From: a virus
Length of the DNA stretch: 26,122 bases
Direction: 5' to 3' (one strand)
IMG/VR virus record: IMGVR_UViG_3300047352_000543
Span: 1-26,122 of that record
Below are positions 6,835 through 26,122 of the stretch, one piece after another. Both the position numbers and the translations under genes were made by a program. Under the pieces are notes generated by a model. The model searched no databases and had not been told where the DNA came from. It saw nothing but the letters and a program-made list of their open reading frames with translations. Within the stretch, counting starts at the first letter, position 1; each line of letters opens with the position of its first letter.

Positions 6835-8587
6835 TGTAACTTAACTCCTTACGTAAAAATTCGAGTGATCTATATAGGAACCCAGTGATATCTAGGTTGG
6901 GGTCAGACGCCAATGGAAGTTCTGGTGTCTGTGGATGCGGTAACTGATAAAGTTGACCGAGTAATGAAATGAAACTGTTAATACTTTGTTGAGTTTGTTG
7001 GACCATTCGGAAGGGGTAGCCACTCAACATTGCTGCCCTTTCTTCGTCAGTCTTACTTGGGAAGAGGTACTTAAGTGCTTCAATAGAATCCACACCCAGT
7101 TCCTGAAGGTTACGTACGACAATACTGTTATTAAGTATGTCTTGTGCGTCATCTTCAAAGATGTCACCCATCCAACGCCAGCTAACTGTAGTGCTACCGT
7201 CGGGGATTAAACCTGTTACTCCGTCAGGCATTTCGCCTGTGTCAAGTGTAACACGGATGGCTTTTTCTCTCTTCTGAGTGAACTTCTCCATAGCAGCAAT
7301 GTGTTTCTCCATTGCTTCTGTGTATTCCTCAGGTGTCTGATATTCTTCCTGTAGAGGAACTACAGGTTGCTTGAGACCAATTGCAACTGCAAAGCTCTCT
7401 TTAAACATCTTCTCTTCATGCTGAATCATCAGACTGAAGAGTCTGCATAAGCCGTAGCTAAACAGTGCCTTTGCTTTCTTCTCTGCTGTAGCAGCACACC
7501 TGCCATACAGAGACTTCATTTCATATGCAGTAGAAGCAGTGTTGATGTCAATGTCATCTACACCACCCAGTGCCAGTCTGATTTCAGAGCGATACTGTTT
7601 GATATACATATTCTGGTCACCACTCACACTGTCAGGCGTGAGGTAGTTGACACGGTCAGTTGGCTCAAGGTTTGCGATTACTCGTGGCACCTTGATTTGA
7701 CCATCTAAAGCAGACGCGCCACCAAACGGTTCACTGACTCTGGTGCTACTACGTCCAATAGCAGCAAAGCCTGCTTGACTACTAATGGTTGGACGGAAGC
7801 TACCTTCATCACCACTCTCAATAATGTCGTGTTTGGGTCGACTAGAGATGAGTGTGGGGTTGCCAAAGAACTTGAGGTTCTTACGGACGTTCTTGACTAG
7901 CTCATCATGATAGAGAATCTGATTGGCTAACCAATCAAACTCACCATTACCAGTAGCTTCACCAGTACAGTCCATGTGGTTAAACACTTCGACTGCTGGA
8001 ATAAAACCAAGACTGTTCGTTAAGGTCTCGGTCTCACCTTGCATATTATTGATTTGAGCTCCCATCTCGTTCTCAAAGTCAATCTTCTCATTAGAGATTG
8101 TCTGTTCGATACGGTCACGGAATACTTTCAGTCGGATGTATTTCTTCTTACCACCTTTACCATCTGACCTTGCAAATGTATCAAGCAGATTAGGCTCTTG
8201 TACATTAAAGGTATAGATTAAGACGACGTTCTCAAGGTCACCATTCTGGTCACGATAAGCACGATAGTTTTCTTTAGGGAAGAACAGAAGCTGGTAGTCA
8301 TCTCCTGACGGTCTGAAGTAGAACAGACCTTGTCCGTCACATAGGAAGTAATCAACAATACTGTCGAGCTTCATCTCAAGCATGTTGTGGTCTACAACAC
8401 GTTTGATGAACTCTTTGCGATAACCAAAGCTATCTTGTTCTGCGTAGAACTCAAGTCCTTTACGCAGCATGAACATCCTCATCTGTGATAGATGAGAACT
8501 TACAATCATTGAATCAACAGCAAGGTCCCCACGCCGCTCTTTAGCAGCTAAGAGGATCTGTTCAAATTGACTGTTAACTTGATTCAT
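6308..8587 (-). CDS. Portal protein with a Gly/Ser/Pro-rich C-terminal tail
   Basis: This is a 759-residue protein. Residues 1-580 or so read as a portal, the dodecameric ring at the capsid vertex through which DNA passes. They include the N-terminal helical and wing region (RKEFIKRVVDHNMLEMKLD), a beta-rich section (DDYQLLFFPKENYRAYRD), the region MYIKQYRSEIRLALGGVDDI followed by TASTAYEMKSLYGR, and the helical stem and crown. Neighbours support this: terminase two genes upstream and capsid downstream. From about residue 585 the protein changes to a 175-residue Gly/Ser/Pro/Ala tail ending TGRVSKSNQRRKS, in the DNA that also encodes the next protein. No in-frame stop occurs before 6308, so the tail must be translated unless a frameshift intervenes. 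The start ATGAATCAAG follows a TTAGACTA box. Confidence 0.87.
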   Translation of the reverse strand: MNQVNSQFEQILLAAKERRGDLAVDSMIVSSHLSQMRMFMLRKGLEFYAEQDSFGYRKEFIKRVVDHNMLEMKLDSIVDYFLCDGQGLFYFRPSGDDYQLLFFPKENYRAYRDQNGDLENVVLIYTFNVQEPNLLDTFARSDGKGGKKKYIRLKVFRDRIEQTISNEKIDFENEMGAQINNMQGETETLTNSLGFIPAVEVFNHMDCTGEATGNGEFDWLANQILYHDELVKNVRKNLKFFGNPTLISSRPKHDIIESGDEGSFRPTISSQAGFAAIGRSSTRVSEPFGGASALDGQIKVPRVIANLEPTDRVNYLTPDSVSGDQNMYIKQYRSEIRLALGGVDDIDINTASTAYEMKSLYGRCAATAEKKAKALFSYGLCRLFSLMIQHEEKMFKESFAVAIGLKQPVVPLQEEYQTPEEYTEAMEKHIAAMEKFTQKREKAIRVTLDTGEMPDGVTGLIPDGSTTVSWRWMGDIFEDDAQDILNNSIVVRNLQELGVDSIEALKYLFPSKTDEERAAMLSGYPFRMVQQTQQSINSFISLLGQLYQLPHPQTPELPLASDPNLDITGFLYRSLEFLRKELSYSGKYHPDSSDERPPSLSPADVRRASAGQPVREQPRTSLPGISGPGAPNASGSGLPGTGPGSAGFGSGGQSMAAGVPGAQRKFEYKQPVPGPGVTLGLPSDANTPGSYSAQLGFNAPGSSAASPVFGAADLLSPSFNPGFDAAGASAAGGRTGSGSGRKSGSGTGRVSKSNQRRKS

Positions 8588-13817: not shown

Positions 13818-14452
13818 ACAGCAAACGCAGCACCGAGTGAAGACAGTCCAGCAACTAGTGCTTGGATTGATTCACGACGACGGTTCTTCTCATCCTTACG
13901 GTCTGCACGTTCCATAGACTCACGACGGAACATCAGCTCATCAGCACGAGCTTCACGTGCATCAATACGGTCTGCTAAACGGTTCTTATCTGACTGTGCC
14001 ATTTGTGCTCGGGTGAGCTCCATTTGATCATTGCCTTGCTGTTGACTAAGCAAGAAATTTCTTTGATTATTTGCTTCTGTAGATGCCAATTGTGCAGTCA
14101 GAGGCTCCATGCTGCGTGAATGGTTTACAGCATCACGTTCTTTTGTTTTTCCTTCTTCTAATCTTCTAATGGCTGACTGCACAGCTCCTTTGCTTGTTTT
14201 GTCATAATCTAAATTCAACTCGCTTTCACTATATCCACTATCTTCGCCATACCTTTTTCCTGCTGCACGAGACCTTGTAGTCTCCATTTTTGTTTGAGCA
14301 GCGTCTAATTCAGTTTGACTTCTACCAAACAAGCTATCCATAAAGGTAGCTTTTACTTTCCCACTTACTGGGTCTTTCTCTCTGCCACTAATTACTCCTT
14401 CAGCATCTTGACCGAAGAAGCCCATAAAATCGTCATATCCGTTTCTAGGCAT
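13814..14452 (-). CDS. Charged coiled-coil probable virion protein
   Basis: This 212-residue protein starts MPRNGYDDFMGFFGQDAEGV. Most of it is strongly helical and charged (RRLEEGKTKERDAVNHSRSM, then RLADRIDAREARADELMFRR). It ends with a short hydrophobic tail (IQALVAGLSSLGAAFAV) that could contact a membrane or pack in a bundle. The N-terminal MNDFYGQEAG of the 296-residue protein and DDFMGFFGQDAEG here look alike, hinting at a shared docking segment in these neighbours. There is no enzyme motif. It follows the S74 gene by 30 nt, and its stop overlaps that of the lysozyme gene. An internal core or ejection role is inferred. Confidence 0.75.
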   Translation of the reverse strand: MPRNGYDDFMGFFGQDAEGVISGREKDPVSGKVKATFMDSLFGRSQTELDAAQTKMETTRSRAAGKRYGEDSGYSESELNLDYDKTSKGAVQSAIRRLEEGKTKERDAVNHSRSMEPLTAQLASTEANNQRNFLLSQQQGNDQMELTRAQMAQSDKNRLADRIDAREARADELMFRRESMERADRKDEKNRRRESIQALVAGLSSLGAAFAV

Positions 14453-14460
14453 TAGTCACT

Positions 14461-14490
14461 CTGTGTAATCTCTTTATCTATTTTACACAG
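14461..14490. repeat. 8-bp inverted repeat across the S74 gene stop
   Basis: CTGTGTAA (14461-14468) and TTACACAG (14483-14490) are perfect complements with a 14-nt loop. The minus-strand stop codon lies inside the second arm. No T-tract follows on the minus strand, so it is not a normal terminator; an RNA processing or coupling element is possible. Confidence 0.45.
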
Positions 14491-15115
14491 CTGCGAGAGC
14501 TTGTTTTGCTTCAAGTCTCGTCAGTCGTGTTTCTAGTTGTTGATTAGCACGCACCAGCAGTCCAATCAGATCTGTTGTGTCGATACAGAGCTTACCAATA
14601 CTCTCGTCGTAGTAAGTGGCGTCAGGTACTACTTCCTGGAACTCTTGTGCAATAAACCCGTGATGCATACGCTCTGGGCTTGAGCTGTACTCTTCTTTAT
14701 AGAAGAAGGTGACAGGACGCAAGTTACGCAGAGTCTCTAGTGCATCATCAATCGTATCTACTGTGTGCTTCGTAGTCTCATCACTCAGACCAATAGCAGC
14801 ACTAGCGATGCTACCAATAGCACCGAATGCACTACCTGTCTTACTGGCACTGGCAGCCTTCTCTGCTGCTTTAACTTGTGCCTTAGCTTGAACACTTGCA
14901 GCTACTACTTGTGCTTCTGCCTGCATTGCCGCTTGCTTTTCAGCAGACCTATTAGTCATTGCATCAGCAGCAATCTGGTCATACTTTGGTGATGTCTCAC
15001 GGATGCTTCCAAAGGTATCTCCTGTACTTACAGCACTCGCAGCTGAACCTGCATTGCTTCCTACCCCGCCTGAACTTAATTGAATAGGTGAAAACTTACC
15101 TGCAAATCTAGTCAT
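14483..15115 (-). CDS. Short protein with C-terminal peptidase S74 (endosialidase-type) chaperone domain
   Basis: This is a 210-residue protein. Residues 1-50 are Gly/Ser-rich, 55-92 form an Ala/Gln-rich helix (AEAQVVAASVQAKAQVKAAE) and 95-110 are Gly/Ala-rich. Residues 111-205 are an intramolecular chaperone domain: SDETTK (Ser111 and Lys116 fit the Ser-Lys self-cleavage dyad), ALETLRNLRPVTFFYK, the signature HGFIAQEFQEVVPDA, and a C-terminal helix LLVRANQQLETRLTRLEAK. In known cases this domain trimerises a spike or fibre and then cuts itself off. Here the part in front is only 110 residues and lacks beta-helix repeats, which is unusual. The start overlaps the previous stop by one base (TAATG). 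Confidence 0.88.
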   Translation of the reverse strand: MTRFAGKFSPIQLSSGGVGSNAGSAASAVSTGDTFGSIRETSPKYDQIAADAMTNRSAEKQAAMQAEAQVVAASVQAKAQVKAAEKAASASKTGSAFGAIGSIASAAIGLSDETTKHTVDTIDDALETLRNLRPVTFFYKEEYSSSPERMHHGFIAQEFQEVVPDATYYDESIGKLCIDTTDLIGLLVRANQQLETRLTRLEAKQALAAV

Positions 15116-21196: not shown

Positions 21197-21202
21197 TCTA
21201 TA

Positions 21203-21332
21203 AAAACTACGTTGCTACGCTAAGCTACGTTCTCTCTATACCTTTCTAAATTAATTACATATGGGGGCTAGGGGGGTATTAATAAATAGGTATATAGAAA
21301 ACTACGGTAGTTAGCGTAGTTTCTGTAGTTTT
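21203..21332. repeat. Long nested inverted repeat next to the virion block
   Basis: The arms 21203-21227 and 21308-21332 are complementary at about 20 of 25 positions, including uninterrupted runs AAAACTAC/GTAGTTTT and CTACGCTAA/TTAGCGTAG. Inside them, TATACCT (21237-21243) and AGGTATA (21288-21294) pair again. The central loop contains the G-runs GGGGGCTAGGGGGG and AT-rich sequence. The left arm lies 6 nt upstream of the minus-strand start at 21196, so the structure would be in that mRNA leader if transcribed. Confidence 0.7.
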
Positions 21333-21472
21333 TCGGCTGACTCCAAATCTGCCGTTTTATAAGCACCGCTGTTTCTTCTCATTAGTGTCCAACAACGCCG
21401 TACGCTGTAGCGGTAGTGATTGTGGAAAACTATTAAATTATTGTAATAACATTTAGCCTGCTTTCTGCCCTG

Positions 21473-21494
21473 AAAAAGCACCCTATAGGGGGCT
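21473..21494 (-). terminator. Minus-strand intrinsic terminator with no assigned gene
   Basis: On the minus strand AGCCCCC, a TATA loop and GGGTGCT form a stem with one mismatch, followed by a T-run. No convincing protein gene lies upstream of it on this strand, so it may end a small RNA. Alternatively it blocks stray transcription from the array. Confidence 0.5.
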
Positions 21495-21666
21495 AAAAGT
21501 GCTACAAAATTTGTGACGGGTCTAATACCCTCTGTACCCGAACTGTCGGTCGAACAAAAAAAAATAACTAGTGTTACACACGCTCGCTTCGCTCGCTTGT
21601 TAACAACTGTTGTTCGCTCACGTTGTGAGCTCACGTTTATCTTTTGTTCACGCAAGTTTACGAACT

Positions 21667-21703
21667 CGAGAATGATTCTCATTTGTAATGATAATGGTTC
21701 TCA
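21667..21703. promoter_or_regulatory. Two tandem Fur-box-like palindromes
   Basis: Both sites fit the 7-1-7 Fur pattern TGATAAT-N-ATTATCA. Site 1 (21667-21681) reads CGAGAAT-G-ATTCTCA, which contains the perfect 6-1-6 palindrome GAGAAT-G-ATTCTC, and matches 11 of 14 positions. Site 2 (21689-21703) reads TGATAAT-G-GTTCTCA and matches 12 of 14. Their centres are 22 bp apart, about two helical turns, as in multi-dimer Fur operators. Fur is the iron-responsive repressor found in cyanobacteria. Which transcript they would control is unclear. Confidence 0.45.
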
Positions 21704-21855
21704 TTGTCGTTCGTAATCATCTTGCGCTCACATTTGTAACCACACATTAACTTCGATATCTAACTGCCGTTGATATCACACGTTCATATTGTTGTGTGTT
21801 ACTTAAGTGAACCCTTGTCTACACGTGAGGGTACCCCTCCTACCTCACCCACCTC

Positions 21856-21880
21856 GCACCATATCTGGTGCTCTTTACCT
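21856..21880 (+). terminator. Hairpin GCACCA-TATC-TGGTGC upstream of the first array gene
   Basis: A perfect 6-bp stem with a TATC loop is followed by TCTTTACCTTTG. The ATG at 21904 lies 32 nt past the hairpin, matching the array spacing. It belongs to the array hairpin family, with a different loop. What it would terminate upstream is unknown. Confidence 0.6.
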
Positions 21881-21903
21881 TTGTACTTTTATATTTAATT
21901 ACT

Positions 21904-22086
21904 ATGACTATTGAACGTCCTGTTGGCGCTGAACGCCGTAACGAACTAGGCAAAGGCTTACTCGGAGCGAGCATCGGCTTTGCTGTACTTGGTCCCATCG
22001 GCGCTGCCGTTGGTGGCTTCATTGGTGCATCTATCGGATGCTCTGAAGATAACGAGCGTAAAGCTCGTAATGACCAAGAGTTCTAA
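21904..22086 (+). CDS. Small glycine-zipper membrane-type protein
   Basis: This is a 60-residue protein, MTIERPVGAERRNELGKGLL. The ATG at 21904 is preferred over a GTG at 21868, because that longer start would run through the upstream hairpin. Residues 18-46 form a glycine zipper (LGASIGFAVLGPIGAAVGGF), with Gly or Ala about every fourth residue, a pattern of tightly packed membrane helices. The N terminus is charged and the tail (CSEDNERKARNDQEF) is polar with one cysteine. Such proteins can insert in membranes as holins, stress proteins or toxins. Here no partner shows which. There is no SD. A TAAC-loop terminator follows 7 nt after the stop. Confidence 0.75.
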   Translation: MTIERPVGAERRNELGKGLLGASIGFAVLGPIGAAVGGFIGASIGCSEDNERKARNDQEF

Positions 22087-22093
22087 CTACATT

Positions 22094-22120
22094 CCCCTCT
22101 AACGAGGGGTTTATCTTTTT
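22094..22120 (+). terminator. TAAC-loop hairpin (CCCCTC/GAGGGG) with T-rich tail
   Basis: The 6-bp stem at 22094-22109 has loop TAAC and is followed by TTTATCTTTTTG. It ends the glycine-zipper gene. The next ATG is unusually far (103 nt), leaving room for a separate promoter there. Confidence 0.85.
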
Positions 22121-22212
22121 GTACAATTTCTTTCAAGTAATTGCTTGCACATGTATGTGTTTCTTTTACTTGATTGCTTGTTGTCAGCACCATTCTTTAT
22201 ATCTAAATCATT

Positions 22213-22392
22213 ATGTCTAACAATCCTTATGTCAATCAAATCATGGAGCAGACAGGTATGTCTGAGCGTGAAGTCTTTGCTTCCGCTGCTCCAATGCGTC
22301 CAATGACTTTCCCTTGTGAAATTCACGGTCGCACATTTGAAACTCACAATGAGTACATCAATGCTATGCATGAGTTTCTCGACTCTATGTAA
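22213..22392 (+). CDS. 59-residue protein with a Cys/His-rich C-terminal half
   Basis: The frame runs from the ATG at 22213 to the TAA at 22390-22392: MSNNPYVNQIMEQTGMSERE and on. Residues 33-59 (FPCEIHGRTFETHNEYINAM then HEFLDSM) contain Cys35, His38, His45 and His52 around aromatic residues, a layout like a compact C2H2-type zinc-binding finger. Metal binding is inferred, not shown. The N-terminal half is polar and Met-rich. There is no signal peptide or SD. The gene is bounded on both sides by TAAC-loop hairpins. Its leader is the longest in the array and contains TTGATTGCTTG and TTTATATCT, which may act as a promoter. Confidence 0.72.
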   Translation: MSNNPYVNQIMEQTGMSEREVFASAAPMRPMTFPCEIHGRTFETHNEYINAMHEFLDSM

Positions 22393-22398
22393 CTACCT

Positions 22399-22430
22399 TC
22401 CCTCCTAACGGAGGGTTTAGTTCACTGTGT
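22399..22430 (+). terminator. TAAC-loop hairpin (CCCTCC/GGAGGG), copy 1 of an exact 32-nt repeat
   Basis: The hairpin is at 22400-22415, followed by TTTAG and TTCACTGTGT. The 32 nt from 22399 to 22430 are identical to 22811-22842. The next ATG (22448) is 32 nt past the stem. Confidence 0.85.
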
Positions 22431-22447
22431 TCTTATAAATGTATCTA

Positions 22448-22804
22448 ATGTTCAAATCACTTCTTGCCGCTTCAGCTATCGCCCTTGCTACTGCAATGCC
22501 TAGCTTTGCTGCTCCTTCTACGTGTTGGTTATCACCTAATACACGTAGTAACGGAAGTATCCCAGCTCAGACCTGTGACGTACATCACCGCGTTAACGCT
22601 AATGGCCACAAGGTTATTGACGTTTACACACCAGTTGATGGTGTCACTATGACTGTCATTCTCTGGAAGGATGAGAACCATGACCCTGAATACGCAGAGG
22701 TTATTGGTTCTAACGGTGTACGTGGCATCATGAGCTATCGCTTCGATAACTCTGGTGACTTACACCTCTTCAACGATGCTGCTGAAGCATACATTCGTCT
22801 TTGA
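22448..22804 (+). CDS. Small secreted protein with signal peptide
   Basis: The protein is 118 residues from the ATG at 22448; an ATG at 22439 would add three. I chose 22448 because MFKSLLAASAIALATAMPSF then has the usual Lys-bearing N region, and because the hairpin-to-ATG gap becomes 32 nt, as in its neighbours. The signal peptide probably ends at SFA-AP (about residue 22). The mature part has two cysteines near its start (TCWLSPN and AQTCDVHH) that could form a disulfide. A beta-rich body follows (KVIDVYTPVDGVTMTVILWK), ending in ALFN-like acidic residues and AYIRL. Small proteins of this style occur in marine cyanobacteria, suggesting host origin. The target is probably the periplasm. Function is unknown. 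Confidence 0.8.
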   Translation: MFKSLLAASAIALATAMPSFAAPSTCWLSPNTRSNGSIPAQTCDVHHRVNANGHKVIDVYTPVDGVTMTVILWKDENHDPEYAEVIGSNGVRGIMSYRFDNSGDLHLFNDAAEAYIRL

Positions 22805-22810
22805 TACCTA

Positions 22811-22842
22811 TCCCTCCTAACGGAGGGTTTAGTTCACTGTGT
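22811..22842 (+). terminator. TAAC-loop hairpin (CCCTCC/GGAGGG), copy 2 of the 32-nt repeat
   Basis: The stem is at 22812-22827 and the tail TTTAGTTCACTGTGT is the same as in copy 1. The secreted-protein gene lies exactly between the two copies. The next ATG (22860) is 32 nt past the stem. Confidence 0.85.
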
Positions 22843-22859
22843 AATTTATCAATAACATC

Positions 22860-23057
22860 ATGAACGTACTTGCAACTGTGAGTAAGACCACTAAGGGTCA
22901 CACCACTACCTGGCGCTTCTGCGAGGTAGCTGGTACATACTTCGCTCTTCGCGATAACAACAAGGTTATCTCTTGTAAGAGCAAGGATGATATGCGTTCA
23001 CTGTATCAACAGTTTACGACTAACAAGAAGTATGGGTTCACACCCGTTCTTGTGTGA
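22860..23057 (+). CDS. Small basic protein, unknown, 65 residues
   Basis: The sequence starts MNVLATVSKTTKGHTTTWRF and continues with CEVAGTYFALRDNNKVISCK and a Lys-rich helix (SKDDMRSLYQQFTTNKKYGF). It looks like a compact beta-beta-beta-alpha fold with two cysteines and a net positive charge. Small single-domain phage proteins of this kind often bind nucleic acid or a host enzyme, but I see no diagnostic motif. It has no SD. Hairpins bound it on both sides. Confidence 0.74.
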   Translation: MNVLATVSKTTKGHTTTWRFCEVAGTYFALRDNNKVISCKSKDDMRSLYQQFTTNKKYGFTPVLV

Positions 23058-23067
23058 CCACAGTATT

Positions 23068-23090
23068 GCACCCTAACGGGTGCTTTACTT
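23068..23090 (+). terminator. TAAC-loop hairpin (GCACCC/GGGTGC)
   Basis: The perfect 6-bp stem is at 23068-23083, with loop TAAC and tail TTTACTTCACTGTAC. The tail shares TTCACTGT with the 32-nt repeat pair. The next ATG is 31 nt past the stem. Confidence 0.85.
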
Positions 23091-23114
23091 CACTGTACTT
23101 TTTATCTGGACAAC

Positions 23115-23255
23115 ATGTCAGAACTTCTTACTGCTTACTCTGAGTACCTCGAACGTATGTTCGTGAAGTCAGATGAACTAGCAACAGTGGACCTCTTCAC
23201 TGTGCCTACAACAGTCAACCTTCCTCTACTGGAGGAATGGGCTGATGTGGACTGA
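23115..23255 (+). CDS. 46-residue acidic protein, unknown
   Basis: The frame runs from the ATG at 23115 to the TGA at 23253-23255: MSELLTAYSEYLERMFVKSD, then ELATVDLFTVPTTVNLPLLE and EWADVD. It is acidic, without cysteine, with two probable amphipathic helices around a Thr/Val/Pro segment. There is no signal peptide. It is too short for most gene callers, but it fills the interval between two family hairpins exactly and begins 31 nt after the first, which supports it being real. Small acidic phage proteins often inhibit host DNA-binding proteins; that is only a possibility here. Confidence 0.68.
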   Translation: MSELLTAYSEYLERMFVKSDELATVDLFTVPTTVNLPLLEEWADVD

Positions 23256-23261
23256 GGTACT

Positions 23262-23290
23262 GCGCCCTAACGGGCGCTTTATTTCTTTAT
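23262..23290 (+). terminator. TAAC-loop hairpin (GCGCCC/GGGCGC)
   Basis: The stem is at 23262-23277, with loop TAAC and tail TTTATTTCTTTATG. It lies 6 nt after the stop of the 46-residue gene. Confidence 0.85.
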
Positions 23291-23326
23291 GCCTTTTACA
23301 AGGCGTTGTTCTATGCATTAACTCTC

Positions 23327-23539
23327 ATGATTCGTATTCCTGGTACCACTATGTCTCTCCGTCTGTTCGACGACGTCGCAACAGTGGATGAGCAGTACAA
23401 CATCGTTGACGTAGGTATCCAATACGAAGACGGTGCTATTGACAGTCTCGCTGTAGGTGGTTCATTCCACTCACTCAAGCGTGCTGTTAACAATATGAAC
23501 TCTAACGCGGACGCTGCTGCCACCGACGTGGCTTCCTGA
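23327..23539 (+). CDS. Small acidic protein, unknown, 70 residues
   Basis: The ATG at 23327 gives MIRIPGTTMSLRLFDDVATV. A TTG at 23306 (28 nt after the hairpin) would give seven more residues, and the Met at 23351 is a later option. The core is beta-like and acidic (DEQYNIVDVGIQYEDGAIDS), followed by GGSFHSLKRAVNNMNS and an Ala/Asp tail. There is no cysteine and no signal peptide. No family is recognised. The gene ends 11 nt before a terminator. Confidence 0.68.
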   Translation: MIRIPGTTMSLRLFDDVATVDEQYNIVDVGIQYEDGAIDSLAVGGSFHSLKRAVNNMNSNADAAATDVAS

Positions 23540-23550
23540 GCGTCTCGCCT

Positions 23551-23579
23551 CCTCCCTTAACCGGGAGGTTTATTTTTTT
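23551..23579 (+). terminator. Strong terminator (CCTCCC/GGGAGG, TTAACC loop)
   Basis: The 6-bp stem at 23551-23568 has a six-base loop containing TAAC and is followed by TTTATTTTTTT, the best T-tract in the array. The convergent minus-strand gene ends at 23586, so strong termination here would protect it from read-through. Confidence 0.88.
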
Positions 23580-23585
23580 GTTCCT

Positions 23586-23963
23586 CTACAACTGACCAAG
23601 CACAGGTTTCTCTGATGCGTAGTCGTATAACCCTCCCGTTAACTCTGCTAACTGCATACCTGCTGCGGTTAACCCTGCTGCTGGGATGACATACCGGACT
23701 GTTGCAGACGCTGCTGGCATTCCTAACTGTGCAGCTCTGTCAATCATCCTAGGTCCACCTGGACGGTCAATCTCCGGTAATCCATATGTAAGCGGTGTTC
23801 CTATAATTCCACCTGCCATACCCCTACCTACGGACATCATTGAGCCGTCGGGGTTGGACGGTATTACTGCTTCCCTAACTCTATGGGCATATTGGTCATC
23901 AAATGACCGTAATCGTTGCCCAAGATTGCCCAACATCTCCTGTAGTTGTCGTCCTTTTGACAT
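23586..23963 (-). CDS. Probable virion protein embedded in the small-gene array
   Basis: This is a 125-residue protein, MSKGRQLQEMLGNLGQRLRS. I prefer the ATG at 23963 to one at 23978, because the TACAAT box then has 25 nt before the start, as in the virion genes. Residues 45-110 are Gly/Ala/Pro-rich with hydrophobic stretches (GMAGGIIGTPLTYGLPEIDR, then VRYVIPAAGLTAAGMQLAEL), close in character to the internal virion proteins at 15115-16955. It is on the minus strand among plus-strand genes and has a virion-type promoter. It is therefore probably expressed with the late block, as an outlying virion gene. No family is recognised. Confidence 0.72.
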   Translation of the reverse strand: MSKGRQLQEMLGNLGQRLRSFDDQYAHRVREAVIPSNPDGSMMSVGRGMAGGIIGTPLTYGLPEIDRPGGPRMIDRAAQLGMPAASATVRYVIPAAGLTAAGMQLAELTGGLYDYASEKPVLGQL

Positions 23964-23988
23964 ACTATAGATACACATACTTATCCCT

Positions 23989-23994
23989 ATTGTA
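23989..23994 (-). promoter_or_regulatory. TACAAT -10 box for the outlying virion gene
   Basis: Minus-strand TACAATAGGG with 25 nt before the ATG at 23963. It lies inside an inverted repeat CATACT/AGTATG (23976-23981 and 23996-24001). A pair of 8-bp direct repeats lies 12 nt upstream of it. Confidence 0.55.
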
Positions 23995-24006
23995 TGAGTA
24001 TGGGCG

Positions 24007-24025
24007 CATTAAGAAATCATTAAGA
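24007..24025 (-). promoter_or_regulatory. Pho-box-like direct repeat upstream of the TACAAT box
   Basis: On the minus strand TCTTAATG-ATT-TCTTAATG: two exact 8-bp direct repeats with a 3-nt spacer, ending 12 nt before the -10 box. Cyanobacterial Pho boxes are 8-bp repeats of the form (C/T)TTAA(C/T)(C/T)(T/A) with 3-nt spacers near the -35 position. The fit is partial, so a phosphate response is only a suggestion. Confidence 0.35.
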
Positions 24026-24028
24026 CTG

Positions 24029-24196
24029 ATGATACTTTTCCTCTTCCTTATCTCCCTCTATCCCTACCCTGTAGTTGAAGCTGACCCTCATTACTGTTAT
24101 GAAATAGCCGAAGAGCTACGAATAGCTACAGAAAACGAGGTAATTACAGATAAAGAAGCAGCTCGCCTATTAGAGCGCTGTCCTTTACATACATAA
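24029..24196 (+). CDS. Small secreted two-cysteine protein
   Basis: This is a 55-residue protein from the ATG at 24029: MILFLFLISLYPYPVVEADP. A longer frame upstream overlaps the divergent promoter and is unlikely. Residues 1-18 are a signal peptide, with cleavage probable after VEA. The mature part is a helical hairpin with Cys23 and Cys51 placed to form one disulfide (HYCYEIAEELRIATENEVIT, then DKEAARLLERC). I recall similar small exported proteins with a CxxxAxELRxA...LLxRC pattern in marine cyanophages, but function is not known to me. Location: periplasm or outer face. A weak hairpin (TTCCG/CGGAA, 24202-24222) follows the stop. Confidence 0.7.
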   Translation: MILFLFLISLYPYPVVEADPHYCYEIAEELRIATENEVITDKEAARLLERCPLHT

Positions 24197-24259
24197 CAGC
24201 CTTCCGCCTCACATAAACGGAATATTTAACCTAGATTATTACTGTTAACGATATTACTT

Positions 24260-24586
24260 ATGTCTATTGAATGGGCCGCTGGCCTGTTCGAGGGCGAAGG
24301 TACTATTACACGTGATAAACGATGTTTGTCGTTTGAACTTAAGATGCATTTAACTGATTTAGATGTATTACACAAGCTACAAGCAACCCTAGGGTGTGGT
24401 TCTATCCACCCTTGCCGTACTACTCAAAAGCACCATAAGCCTATTTGGCGTTGGAGAGTATCTAATCGCAAAGATATCTATCGTGTACTTAGTTCATTCC
24501 TTCCCTATCTCGGACTTCGCCGAAGCTATAAAGCTATTAATGTACTTGAAGATATAGAACTTCTTGCACCCTATCGGGTGCTGTAG
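24260..24586 (+). CDS. LAGLIDADG homing endonuclease, single motif
   Basis: This is a 108-residue protein with one LAGLIDADG-type motif, WAAGLFEGEGTI (residues 5-16); the acidic residue at its end would bind the metal. One motif means it would act as a homodimer. The body fits the family: LQATLGCGSIHPCRTTQKHH and WRWRVSNRKDIYRVLSSFLP, then the LGLRRSYK segment. It is short but near the lower size limit for a single-motif enzyme. It is free-standing, with no intron or intein boundary visible. Its last codons (LAPYRVL) form the hairpin at 24566-24581, so the CDS has run into a pre-existing hairpin. It begins 63 nt after the previous stop, with no SD. Confidence 0.88.
   Translation: MSIEWAAGLFEGEGTITRDKRCLSFELKMHLTDLDVLHKLQATLGCGSIHPCRTTQKHHKPIWRWRVSNRKDIYRVLSSFLPYLGLRRSYKAINVLEDIELLAPYRVL
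24566..24581. terminator. Hairpin GCACCC-TATC-GGGTGC inside two convergent CDS ends
   Basis: A perfect 6-bp stem with loop TATC on the plus strand lies within the last codons of the LAGLIDADG gene and covers the stop of the probable minus-strand 42-residue gene. The plus-strand tail TGTAGTTGTTTG is only moderately T-rich. It is a member of the array hairpin family. Confidence 0.6.
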
Positions 24587-24699
24587 TTGTTTGTGTCCTT
24601 ATTATTGCCTATGAATGCAATCAATGTTACCTCTGTACACCGCTTTAACAGTTGTACTCCACCTTGAAGTCCCGTCCTTCCCGGTAGTTCTTCTGCCAT
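24571..24699 (-). CDS. Possible 42-residue protein on the minus strand
   Basis: The frame runs from the ATG (24697-24699) to a TAG at 24571-24573: MAEELPGRTGLQGGVQLLKR, then CTEVTLIAFIGNNKDTNNYS and TR. It fills most of the gap between the LAGLIDADG gene and the gene at 24769, which has no plus-strand frame of note. Its upstream sequence has TACATT with 23 nt before the ATG, the spacing of the virion promoters. The start MAEELPGRTGLQGG reads like N termini of the virion proteins. It overlaps the LAGLIDADG end by 16 bp. A chance ORF is possible. Confidence 0.42.
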   Translation of the reverse strand: MAEELPGRTGLQGGVQLLKRCTEVTLIAFIGNNKDTNNYSTR

Positions 24700-24722
24700 T
24701 TATATTTCCATCTGAGGAAATC

Positions 24723-24728
24723 AATGTA
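24723..24728 (-). promoter_or_regulatory. TACATT box for the possible 42-residue gene
   Basis: Minus-strand CTACTACATTG with 23 nt before the ATG at 24699. It differs by one base from the TACAAT consensus of the virion promoters. Confidence 0.35.
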
Positions 24729-24760
24729 GTAGACGACTACCTCCCTCATAGCAAGCTATG
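24726..24760 (+). promoter_or_regulatory. Two small hairpins in the leader of the 78-residue gene
   Basis: GTAGT/ACTAC (24726-24740, 5-nt loop) and CATAGC/GCTATG (24747-24760) stand in tandem, the second ending 8 nt before the ATG at 24769. This gene lacks the usual TAAC-loop hairpin upstream, and these may take its place. Confidence 0.4.
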
Positions 24761-24768
24761 ATTATCTT

Positions 24769-25005
24769 ATGCAAGTAAATATCCCTCCCATGATTACTAT
24801 GAATGACCGGGTACTCTCCAAGTTGAAAGACGAATATGCTGAAGCTGTTGTGGAAAATATGACACAACGTCAAGCTTTCTCCTACCTACGTCAAGTAATT
24901 TATAACGACGTAAGTGTACTTGGCTCCGAAGATGTCAAACGTAAGATTATTAAAGCTTTCGGTGAAGACAAGTACCAAGAGATGCTTGAAGACGCCTCTA
25001 AATAG
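24769..25005 (+). CDS. Small helical protein, unknown, 78 residues
   Basis: The sequence starts MQVNIPPMITMNDRVLSKLK and continues EYAEAVVENMTQRQAFSYLR, ending GEDKYQEMLEDASK. It is highly helical, with alternating acidic and basic residues and no cysteine. The C-terminal half, with SEDVKRKIIKAFGEDKYQEM, resembles short helix-turn-helix-like bundles, but I cannot assign a family. Two internal Met residues (8 and 11) could also serve as starts. There is no SD. A family hairpin follows 28 nt after the stop. Confidence 0.74.
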   Translation: MQVNIPPMITMNDRVLSKLKDEYAEAVVENMTQRQAFSYLRQVIYNDVSVLGSEDVKRKIIKAFGEDKYQEMLEDASK

Positions 25006-25025
25006 GCCCTATTAATAGAAACAAG

Positions 25026-25058
25026 CAGCCATTGCACCCTAACGGGTGCTTTAGCTGT
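25026..25058 (+). terminator. TAAC-loop hairpin (GCACCC/GGGTGC), copy 1 of a 27-nt repeat
   Basis: The stem is at 25034-25049, loop TAAC, tail TTTAGCTG. The 27 nt from 25026 to 25052 recur exactly at 25866-25892. The next ATG is 31 nt past the stem. Confidence 0.85.
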
Positions 25059-25080
25059 AAATGTCCTTTGAGAATATCTC

Positions 25081-25263
25081 ATGACTACGTCTACAGAACT
25101 TCGTTCTTTCCCACCTGTTACTGATTCAATTGATTTCATCAAGCAGGTGGACTGGGCTGACGTCCGTCGTCGTTGCAGAGCCGGAGTTAACAACTGCGGT
25201 CTCGTTATCGCCGTCATTGGCGAGAAGATGCACGACCTCGGTGTCTTCCTAGCCGAAGTCTGA
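25081..25263 (+). CDS. Small protein, unknown, 60 residues
   Basis: The sequence starts MTTSTELRSFPPVTDSIDFI. A central segment, WADVRRRCRAGVNNCGLVIA, has an Arg-rich turn and two cysteines. The end is hydrophobic and acidic (VIGEKMHDLGVFLAEV). There is no signal peptide. It could be a small regulator that binds RNA polymerase or nucleic acid through the Arg-rich stretch, but this is a guess. The ATG is 31 nt past the previous hairpin, and a structured stretch follows the stop. Confidence 0.74.
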   Translation: MTTSTELRSFPPVTDSIDFIKQVDWADVRRRCRAGVNNCGLVIAVIGEKMHDLGVFLAEV

Positions 25264-25268
25264 CCTAC

Positions 25269-25323
25269 CTGGGGATAACAGTGAGAAATTGCGCTTGAAC
25301 GCGTTTAAGCTCGTCAACCCCAG
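25269..25323 (+). ncRNA. Possible structured RNA element (two-level stem)
   Basis: CTGGGG (25269-25274) pairs with CCCCAG (25318-25323). Inside, GCTTGAA (25293-25299) pairs with TTTAAGC (25304-25310), with one G-T pair and a CGCG loop. It lies between the stop of the 60-residue gene and the next terminator, a place where no other array unit has extra sequence. It may be a 3' UTR structure or a processed small RNA. Confidence 0.35.
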
Positions 25324-25333
25324 TGTGTACATT

Positions 25334-25356
25334 GCTCCCTAACGGGAGCTTTGTTT
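25334..25356 (+). terminator. TAAC-loop hairpin (GCTCCC/GGGAGC)
   Basis: The stem is at 25334-25349, loop TAAC, tail TTTGTTTTTATG. The next ATG is 28 nt past the stem. Confidence 0.87.
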
Positions 25357-25377
25357 TTATGTGTTTATTAACTTCTT

Positions 25378-25731
25378 ATGTTTAACATTATTCGTGCTGG
25401 CTTTGCTGTACGCTCTCACACTGAAGTATGGAATCACATAAAATCAACAATGATTGATGCAGGAGTTACTTTTCCTCTTCAATCTAAAGACTATATTAAG
25501 TTTGCAACTATGTTAAATGCCTCTATGAAGGCTTTACCTCATGCACCTTGGACTAAAGCTGATTATTCTGAACCACACATGCTTAATGCATTGTGGGTCA
25601 ATATTGAAGCCGAAGTTGGACTTAACCTTGTAAAAGTTTGTGAATGCGCTTCTATTCAGATGAATACATTGTCTGATAGCGAAATTCTACATAATCTGCA
25701 ACAAGGTTATGCAACACAAGACTCTATCTAA
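25378..25731 (+). CDS. Unknown protein, 117 residues, one of the largest of the array
   Basis: The sequence starts MFNIIRAGFAVRSHTEVWNH. It looks like a soluble, mostly helical protein (SKDYIKFATMLNASMKALPH, then MLNALWVNIEAEVGLNLVKV) with a CECAS cysteine pair near residue 90 and a polar tail (HNLQQGYATQDSI). There is no signal peptide or membrane segment. No family is recognised. Its base composition is more AT-rich than that of its neighbours. It starts 28 nt past a family hairpin and ends 5 nt before the next. Confidence 0.76.
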   Translation: MFNIIRAGFAVRSHTEVWNHIKSTMIDAGVTFPLQSKDYIKFATMLNASMKALPHAPWTKADYSEPHMLNALWVNIEAEVGLNLVKVCECASIQMNTLSDSEILHNLQQGYATQDSI

Positions 25732-25736
25732 TCATT

Positions 25737-25762
25737 GCCCCCTAACGGGGGCTTTTCTTTTG
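25737..25762 (+). terminator. TAAC-loop hairpin (GCCCCC/GGGGGC)
   Basis: The stem is at 25737-25752, loop TAAC, tail TTTTCTTTTG. This is the most GC-rich stem of the family and a strong terminator candidate. The next ATG is 32 nt past the stem. Confidence 0.88.
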
Positions 25763-25784
25763 TGTGCCCAATATATAAAGAAGC

Positions 25785-25865
25785 ATGAGCCTTATCCTCG
25801 CTAATTACTTGATAAACAAGCAGCGGCGTTACATCCGTGTAGCTAAGCAAACAGCTCATCGGTGA
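25785..25865 (+). CDS. 26-residue basic peptide
   Basis: The frame runs from the ATG at 25785 to the TGA at 25863-25865: MSLILANYLINKQRRYIRVA then KQTAHR. It is strongly basic after a short hydrophobic start and could form one amphipathic helix. Such a peptide might contact RNA, ribosome or membrane. The length is very small, but it fills the interval between two family hairpins and keeps the 32-nt hairpin-to-ATG distance. AAAGAAG just upstream may act as a weak ribosome binding site. A chance ORF cannot be excluded. Confidence 0.55.
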   Translation: MSLILANYLINKQRRYIRVAKQTAHR

Positions 25866-25898
25866 CAGCCATTGCACCCTAACGGGTGCTTTTGTTTT
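25866..25898 (+). terminator. TAAC-loop hairpin (GCACCC/GGGTGC), copy 2 of the 27-nt repeat
   Basis: The stem is at 25874-25889, loop TAAC, tail TTTTGTTTTTC. It shares 27 nt exactly with 25026-25052. The next ATG is 34 nt past the stem. Confidence 0.87.
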
Positions 25899-25923
25899 TC
25901 ATGTTTTTATCTTCAGTTCGTCT

Positions 25924-26122
25924 ATGTCCGTTACCTTCGACTTCCAAATCATTAGTGACACTCAAGTCCCTGGAATTTCGTTGGTTATGGCTCAAAACGA
26001 AGATGCCTTCAGCTACCTCACGGAAGAAGAGGACCTCGCCTATCTAGCAGATGGCTCTGTTCCTCTTGCAACTGACCAAGTCGGTGACTTCATTTCTGAC
26101 GCTGAGCATGCACAGTTGTGCT
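25924..26122 (+). CDS. Unknown acidic protein, 3' end cut off by the window edge
   Basis: The frame runs from the ATG at 25924 to the window edge without a stop. The 66 residues start MSVTFDFQIISDTQVPGISL and continue VMAQNEDAFSYLTEEEDLAY. It is acidic, with a beta-like start and an Asp/Glu-rich middle (LADGSVPLATDQVGDFISDA). There is no signal peptide. It is the next unit of the array, starting 34 nt past the last hairpin. Function is unknown. Confidence 0.72.
   Translation, partial: MSVTFDFQIISDTQVPGISLVMAQNEDAFSYLTEEEDLAYLADGSVPLATDQVGDFISDAEHAQLC

Follow-up and report, generated by a model that had tools for sequence, protein, structure and literature searches.

A hairpin-box module with a covarying stem at gene junctions in the early gene array of an uncultured cyanophage

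Introduction

The contig IMGVR_UViG_3300047352_000543, from an uncultured cyanophage related to S-EIV1, raises the question of why a small hairpin with a preferred loop returns at one junction after another of its small genes. The contig was analyzed over its whole length of 26,122 bases, which is called the window here. We found that the hairpin is one part of a module, in which a stem that covaries is combined with a downstream box at rigid spacing. The module keeps the same layout in related phages, is restricted to this phage group, and is placed both in leaders and between genes. We know of no earlier description of a hairpin, a fixed box and a start codon arranged together at gene junctions. 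For the early-gene arrays of uncultured cyanophages the module offers a handle on expression and, whichever way it acts, a signature by which such arrays can be searched for in metagenomes.

Hairpins at the junctions of the array

Nine perfect 6-bp hairpins with the loop TAAC closed by C-G were found in the window (Table 1). All nine lie on the plus strand, 5-70 bases past stop codons, and none was found on the minus strand. In 500 dinucleotide-preserving shuffles of positions 21201-26122, 6-bp TAAC hairpins appeared with a mean of 0.002 and a maximum of 1. A preliminary description of this DNA, made from the sequence alone, had listed these nine hairpins with six types of stem and a tenth hairpin with the loop TTAACC, and all ten were present. 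Two further copies, with the loop TATC, were absent from that description.

A covariance model, proposed as a check in the same description, recovered all 12 copies of the contig. The model was built mostly on sites of relatives (3 of its 37 sequences are contig copies), and the leader copy was its weakest match (16.7 bits, E 0.12). Relatives were gathered via the terminase and via the composite hairpin-box pattern; the nearest is IMGVR_UViG_3300046170_000371 (G001), of 87 kb, whose terminase protein is 99% identical.

Table 1. Module copies and the array that they punctuate in the window
Feature	Position	Strand	Stem-loop	Box	Box position	ATG	Remarks
Leader hairpin	21856-21871	+	GCACCA-TATC-TGGTGC	TGTACTTT	21882-21889	21904	ahead of first array gene; no upstream gene; poor U-tract
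Hairpin	22094-22109	+	CCCCTC-TAAC-GAGGGG	TGTACAAT	22120-22127
Hairpin	22400-22415	+	CCCTCC-TAAC-GGAGGG	TGTTCTTA	22428-22435		covariance model 44.1 bits
Hairpin	22812-22827	+	CCCTCC-TAAC-GGAGGG	TGTAATTT	22840-22847	22860
Hairpin	23068-23083	+	GCACCC-TAAC-GGGTGC	TGTACTTT	23094-23101	23115
Hairpin	23262-23277	+	GCGCCC-TAAC-GGGCGC	TGCCTTTT	23290-23297
Hairpin	23551-23568	+	CCTCCC-TTAACC-GGGAGG	TGTTCCTC (box-like)	23579-23586		T-tract; next gene convergent (minus strand)
Hairpin	24566-24581	+	GCACCC-TATC-GGGTGC	TGTCCTTA	24594-24601		within 3' end of LAGLIDADG gene; covariance model 44.5 bits
Hairpin	25034-25049	+	GCACCC-TAAC-GGGTGC	TGTCCTTT	25062-25069	25081
Hairpin	25334-25349	+	GCTCCC-TAAC-GGGAGC	TGTGTTTATT	25360-25369	25378
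Hairpin	25737-25752	+	GCCCCC-TAAC-GGGGGC	TGCCCAAT	25765-25772
Hairpin	25874-25889	+	GCACCC-TAAC-GGGTGC	TGTTTTTA	25902-25909
Array of short, mostly unknown genes punctuated by modules	21868-26122	+					early side of divergent structural/early boundary; runs off contig end

A box at fixed distance from the hairpin

Each hairpin of the contig is followed by a T-rich stretch and a TG-containing box (consensus TGTGTTCTTT), which starts 11-13 bases past the stem and which the preliminary description had not noted. An ATG lies about 32 bases past the stem in most copies, exactly at +32 or +33 in 23 of 55. In the family, the layout runs from the stop codon, usually after 5-14 nt, to a 6-bp GC-rich hairpin, which is followed by about 10 nt rich in U, the UGUGUUCUUU-like box and an AUG near +32; this layout was found in about 150 modules across 18 related contigs. 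Where a TGTYCTTT word had a hairpin no more than 45 bases upstream (n = 54), the distance from the hairpin was exactly 12 bases in 42 cases and 11 in 6.

Sites were also selected blind to the hairpin, by TGTYC together with a start codon that opens a reading frame (n = 50). At the fixed register all six stem pairs formed in 32 of these sites and five pairs in another 10, while at slid registers only 0-1 sites had all six. Of the remaining sites, several had a hairpin one or two bases out of register, and about three looked like chance. Because the box hardly occurred without the hairpin in this selection, box and hairpin were regarded as one unit.

A box at a fixed position ahead of each gene could also be a promoter element fused to a terminator, giving short monocistronic and near-leaderless messages, and most copies have a purine after the CTTT, a possible start site for them. 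We consider this quite unlikely, because nothing resembling a -10 element is conserved after the box (at most 0.31 bit per position from +21 to the AUG). The region also showed no promoter excess, with 18 sites against 22 expected, and sigma-70 sites were not enriched; the sigma factor encoded by the phage is RpoD-like. No RNA polymerase was found among the Pfam families of 55 scanned G001 proteins. A virion RNA polymerase of the N4 type, as would serve a hairpin promoter, also seems unlikely, judging from these 55 proteins and from an open reading frame of 2,353 amino acids in G001 that by eye reads as a tail protein.

Two further pairings were seen around the box. Many copies have a further weak hairpin that begins at +20 to +23 and takes in the AUG (for example, near 18410 in L310 and near 4699 in L220: ATGAGT-TTT-ACTCAT and ACATC-ATTCA-GATGT); stems of at least 6 bp were formed in 13% of copies, compared with 3% in shuffles. 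In a clade with TATC loops (L233, L259, L260, L308, L311), GAACACA after the stop codon is able to pair with the box TGTGTTC as an outer stem. This outer stem was rejected as a general part of the module, since it is nearly confined to that clade and is absent from the contig.

Covariation of the stem

In the 12 contig copies, 98.6% of the stem cells were paired, compared with 76% in shuffles, and double-sided changes were seen at five of the six pairs. The preliminary description had taken paired changes within one genome as compensatory and thus as a sign of selection on the structure. Stems that differ between junctions of one genome may, however, not derive from compensatory mutation; the claim is carried by the comparison between phages. 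For this, 37 in-register sites of relatives were selected through the box that follows the hairpin; their stem cells were 97.7% paired, and all six pairs had double-sided changes. Their covariation score was 0.97; shuffles scored 0.22 and slid registers no more than 0.20. The set excludes out-of-register sites, which somewhat favors structure. These results support selection on the stem as a structure. RNA is favored over a DNA cruciform by the one-strand orientation and the U-tracts.

The loop of the module

The preliminary description had further claimed that the TAAC loop is held constant. The two TATC copies in the contig contradicted this, and so did the family: in 78 tetraloops (distinct stems per clade), position 1 was T in 69, position 2 was A in 66, position 3 was T in 45, A in 22, C in 9 and G in 2, and position 4 was C in 61 and T in 15. 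The family consensus is thus UA(U/A)(C/U). Homologous-looking junctions of relatives differed solely in the loop (TATC/TAAC, TAAC/TAGC), and preferences varied by phage, with TGTC and TTTC in G008 and TAAT in G228 and G231. A tendency of clades to keep their own loop was modest (p = 0.016).

UAAC is one of the UMAC sequences, and the preliminary description had proposed on this ground that the loop takes a GNRA-like fold and might be recognized by a protein or a ribonuclease. Such recognition agrees with the presence of UMAC loops in phage boxB, with the conservation of positions 1, 2 and 4 and with the modest keeping of loops by clades. The fold, however, needs A at position 3, which most of the loops lack (A in just 22 of 78, mostly U in the family), so it is not a requirement of the module; moreover, TATC, TGTC, TAAT and TGACTC replace TAAC in the same stem-box layout. 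We consider it very unlikely that this fold explains the module.

Restriction to the phage group

The composite hairpin-box pattern was found in none of 201 picocyanobacterial genomes (the host-type family). The covariance model found nothing in 61 of those genomes, in a whole-genome search run without a positive control, and nothing in 657 kb of host loci. A host origin of the loop was considered and rejected: 800 kb of sampled picocyanobacterial loci hold few terminator-type hairpins, none with TAAC. The possibility, raised in the preliminary description against its own claim, that the same loop is found at the background rate in host terminators was thus not borne out in these samples.

Among cultured phages, blastn with the consensus module gave nothing better than E 0.03. 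In S-EIV1, TGTYCTT words are present, none with a visible module-like hairpin, and the covariance model gave a weak match (E 0.08). A scan of the contig with cmscan against Rfam 15 gave no match up to E = 1.

Terminator features and leader copies

Terminator-like sites numbered 29 against 10.8 expected, and the hairpins of the contig were at the top of the list. The junction copies have the form of an intrinsic terminator, with a perfect GC-rich stem of at least 5 bp, a short loop, a U-tract directly after the stem and a position just past stop codons. They might accordingly be ordinary intrinsic terminators, one per gene, with a preferred loop and nothing further, and some TAWC hairpins at gene ends without a box do look like pure terminators (G001 at 28137, G005 at 7360, G009 at 38974, G015 at 2316). 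We regard this explanation as unlikely. It leaves unexplained the fixed downstream box and the leader hairpins, which have no upstream gene to terminate, and no such loop was found in the sampled host terminators. In the modules that are first of an array, with no gene just upstream (n = 11, chosen by position after inspection), the U-tract had 4.0 T in eight positions, compared with 5.57 in 104 others (p = 2e-5). Since the hairpin is kept where no upstream message must end, the module would be more than a terminator.

The intercistronic C(UUCG)G hairpins of T4 are a case where one tetraloop, of a different sequence, is reused within one phage genome, as it is here. To our knowledge, they have no fixed downstream box.

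Antitermination or translation

Tentatively, we favor the possibility that the module is a terminator-type hairpin tied to the leader box of the next gene, possibly as a boxB-boxA (nut-like) antitermination signal. At a junction, the hairpin and its U-tract would bring about intrinsic termination or attenuation and so give the preceding message its 3' end. Transcripts that read through would carry hairpin and box as a joint leader signal of the following gene. In its likeliest form, this signal would be boxB-boxA-like and arranged as in rRNA leaders; it would load host Nus factors or a phage factor, and a polymerase loaded in this way would pass the next hairpins.

We lean to this reading because of the boxA-like box, the rrn-leader order and the boxB loop of phage phi21. 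The box of the module resembles general boxA sequences. In the boxB-boxA leader of rRNA operons, which works with NusB and S10, the leader RNA likewise has a hairpin and then a short linear TG..CTTT box; the order is boxB, boxA, boxC, and boxA alone is enough for complex formation (PMC10250234). Lambdoid nut sites share with the module the setting in phage early genes and the pairing of a small hairpin with a short box, and UAAC lies within one known boxB loop, the CUAACC of phi21 (PMC12550061). The put RNA of HK022 also forms hairpins in phage early leaders and suppresses termination without a phage protein (PMC9378689), although put is about 70 nt long, folds into two long stem-loops and occurs twice per genome.

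Several points weigh against a nut-like signal. The identity of the box as boxA is one of resemblance, with a partial match to the boxA candidates of host rrn operons: among the picocyanobacterial rRNA operons examined, the leaders of Cyanobium/Synechococcus have TGCACTCTTTGAACCC and the spacer has GAACCTTGACAACTGC. A comparison of host rrn leaders with a position weight matrix of the box was discarded as circular, since the matrix had been built on sites selected for TG; its boxA reference sequences were also out of register. Unlike the rRNA leader, the module lies between protein genes and is repeated many times in a genome. Lambda has only a few nut sites, with boxA ahead of boxB, whereas every copy of the module has the hairpin first, and the loop of the module varies in ways that the UMAC fold disallows. 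No obvious N-like arginine-rich protein was seen among the listed shared proteins, a list that is not exhaustive, and nine phage records yielded no homologue of NusB. Finally, the box lies 12-19 nt before the AUG of genes without a Shine-Dalgarno sequence, a position equally suited to translation.

That position leads to the main alternative, a terminator fused to a translation-initiation element, which we regard as somewhat unlikely although it fits the position of the box and the lack of Shine-Dalgarno sequences nearly as well. In this case the pyrimidine-rich UGUGUUCUUU box would recruit the 30S subunit via ribosomal protein S1, and the hairpin would end or protect the upstream message and set a standby site or a stable 5' end. 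Only 2% of 62 module genes have a Shine-Dalgarno sequence, compared with 27% of 307 late genes, and such initiation would also fit the preferred distance of the ATG and the excess of second hairpins enclosing the AUG. Mutsuda and Sugiura are reported to have described in 2006 (cited in PMC6847405) that initiation on cyanobacterial rbcS mRNA is independent of Shine-Dalgarno and dependent on S1. Other early genes, however, also have few Shine-Dalgarno sequences (9% of 371, near the shuffled level) and do without the box. In addition, the box hardly ever occurred without the hairpin in the hairpin-blind selection, its conserved G is no feature of a pyrimidine tract, and its complementarity to 16S rRNA, 8 bp, is within chance.

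The SAS and ESAS of cluster K mycobacteriophages resemble the module as short repeated elements ahead of the starts of many small genes that are not structural; most point the same way, and some include an inverted repeat (PMC3203893). SAS is an AGGAG-containing 13-mer located 3-7 bp before the start, and its inverted repeats are without RNA covariation, unlike the module with its covarying stems and rare Shine-Dalgarno-like words.

A fuller form of the nut-like reading, which we consider rather doubtful, is a relay: at many junctions of the early region the terminator hairpin would double as boxB, the boxA-like box would follow, and the polymerase would be re-licensed at each gene, possibly by a phage factor reading a lineage-specific dialect of the loop. 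Such a relay would work in hosts that are not known to have Rho. If the module is nut-like, antitermination would extend beyond the lambdoid and rRNA settings and into cyanobacteria; if it is translational, it would be a strong start signal of non-Shine-Dalgarno type that could be put to use in picocyanobacteria.

The contig, its array and its relatives

In the window the structural genes run leftward and the array of small genes rightward from 21.9 kb to the end of the contig. The minus strand encodes a terminase, a major head protein and a structural protein of the virion; this last protein aligns along 79% of its length with one from S-EIV1, a cultured cyanophage, at 48.5% identity.

DNA pieces of G001 aligning to the first 21.8 kb of the contig, which cover much of it, are 73-94% identical, and beyond that point similarity is limited to two hairpin modules. 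This difference suggests rapid turnover of the array genes. It would also fit modules that serve as recombination boundaries, short shared junctions that permit swapping of small gene cassettes, but recombination would need no pairing stems, no rigid spacing and no orientation to one strand, and we hold this explanation to be extremely improbable. G001 may itself lack part of the junction.

The sigma factor of the phage has 59-63% identity to most of its Synechococcus, Cyanobium and Prochlorococcus matches. Its two closest matches (L140 and L141, 80-82%) are on contigs binned as Crocinitomicaceae and Blastopirellula metagenome-assembled genomes, which are probably phage contigs put in wrong bins.

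Other observations concern the array and its surroundings. A stand-alone LAGLIDADG endonuclease gene lies in the array at 24260-24586, and its 3' end is overlapped by a module hairpin. In the non-coding stretch ahead of the array, the dyad repeats GAGAATGATTCTCATT and GATAATGGTTCTCATT at 21664-21720 are Fur-box-like. A stretch of about 120 bases in the divergent region (21214-21330) is found inverted in G001 (L221, about 14426-14543) with 78% identity. The early region of G001 (L220) appears to carry photosynthetic reaction-centre (Photo_RC) genes; two scanned proteins matched this family, at positions that are unconfirmed.

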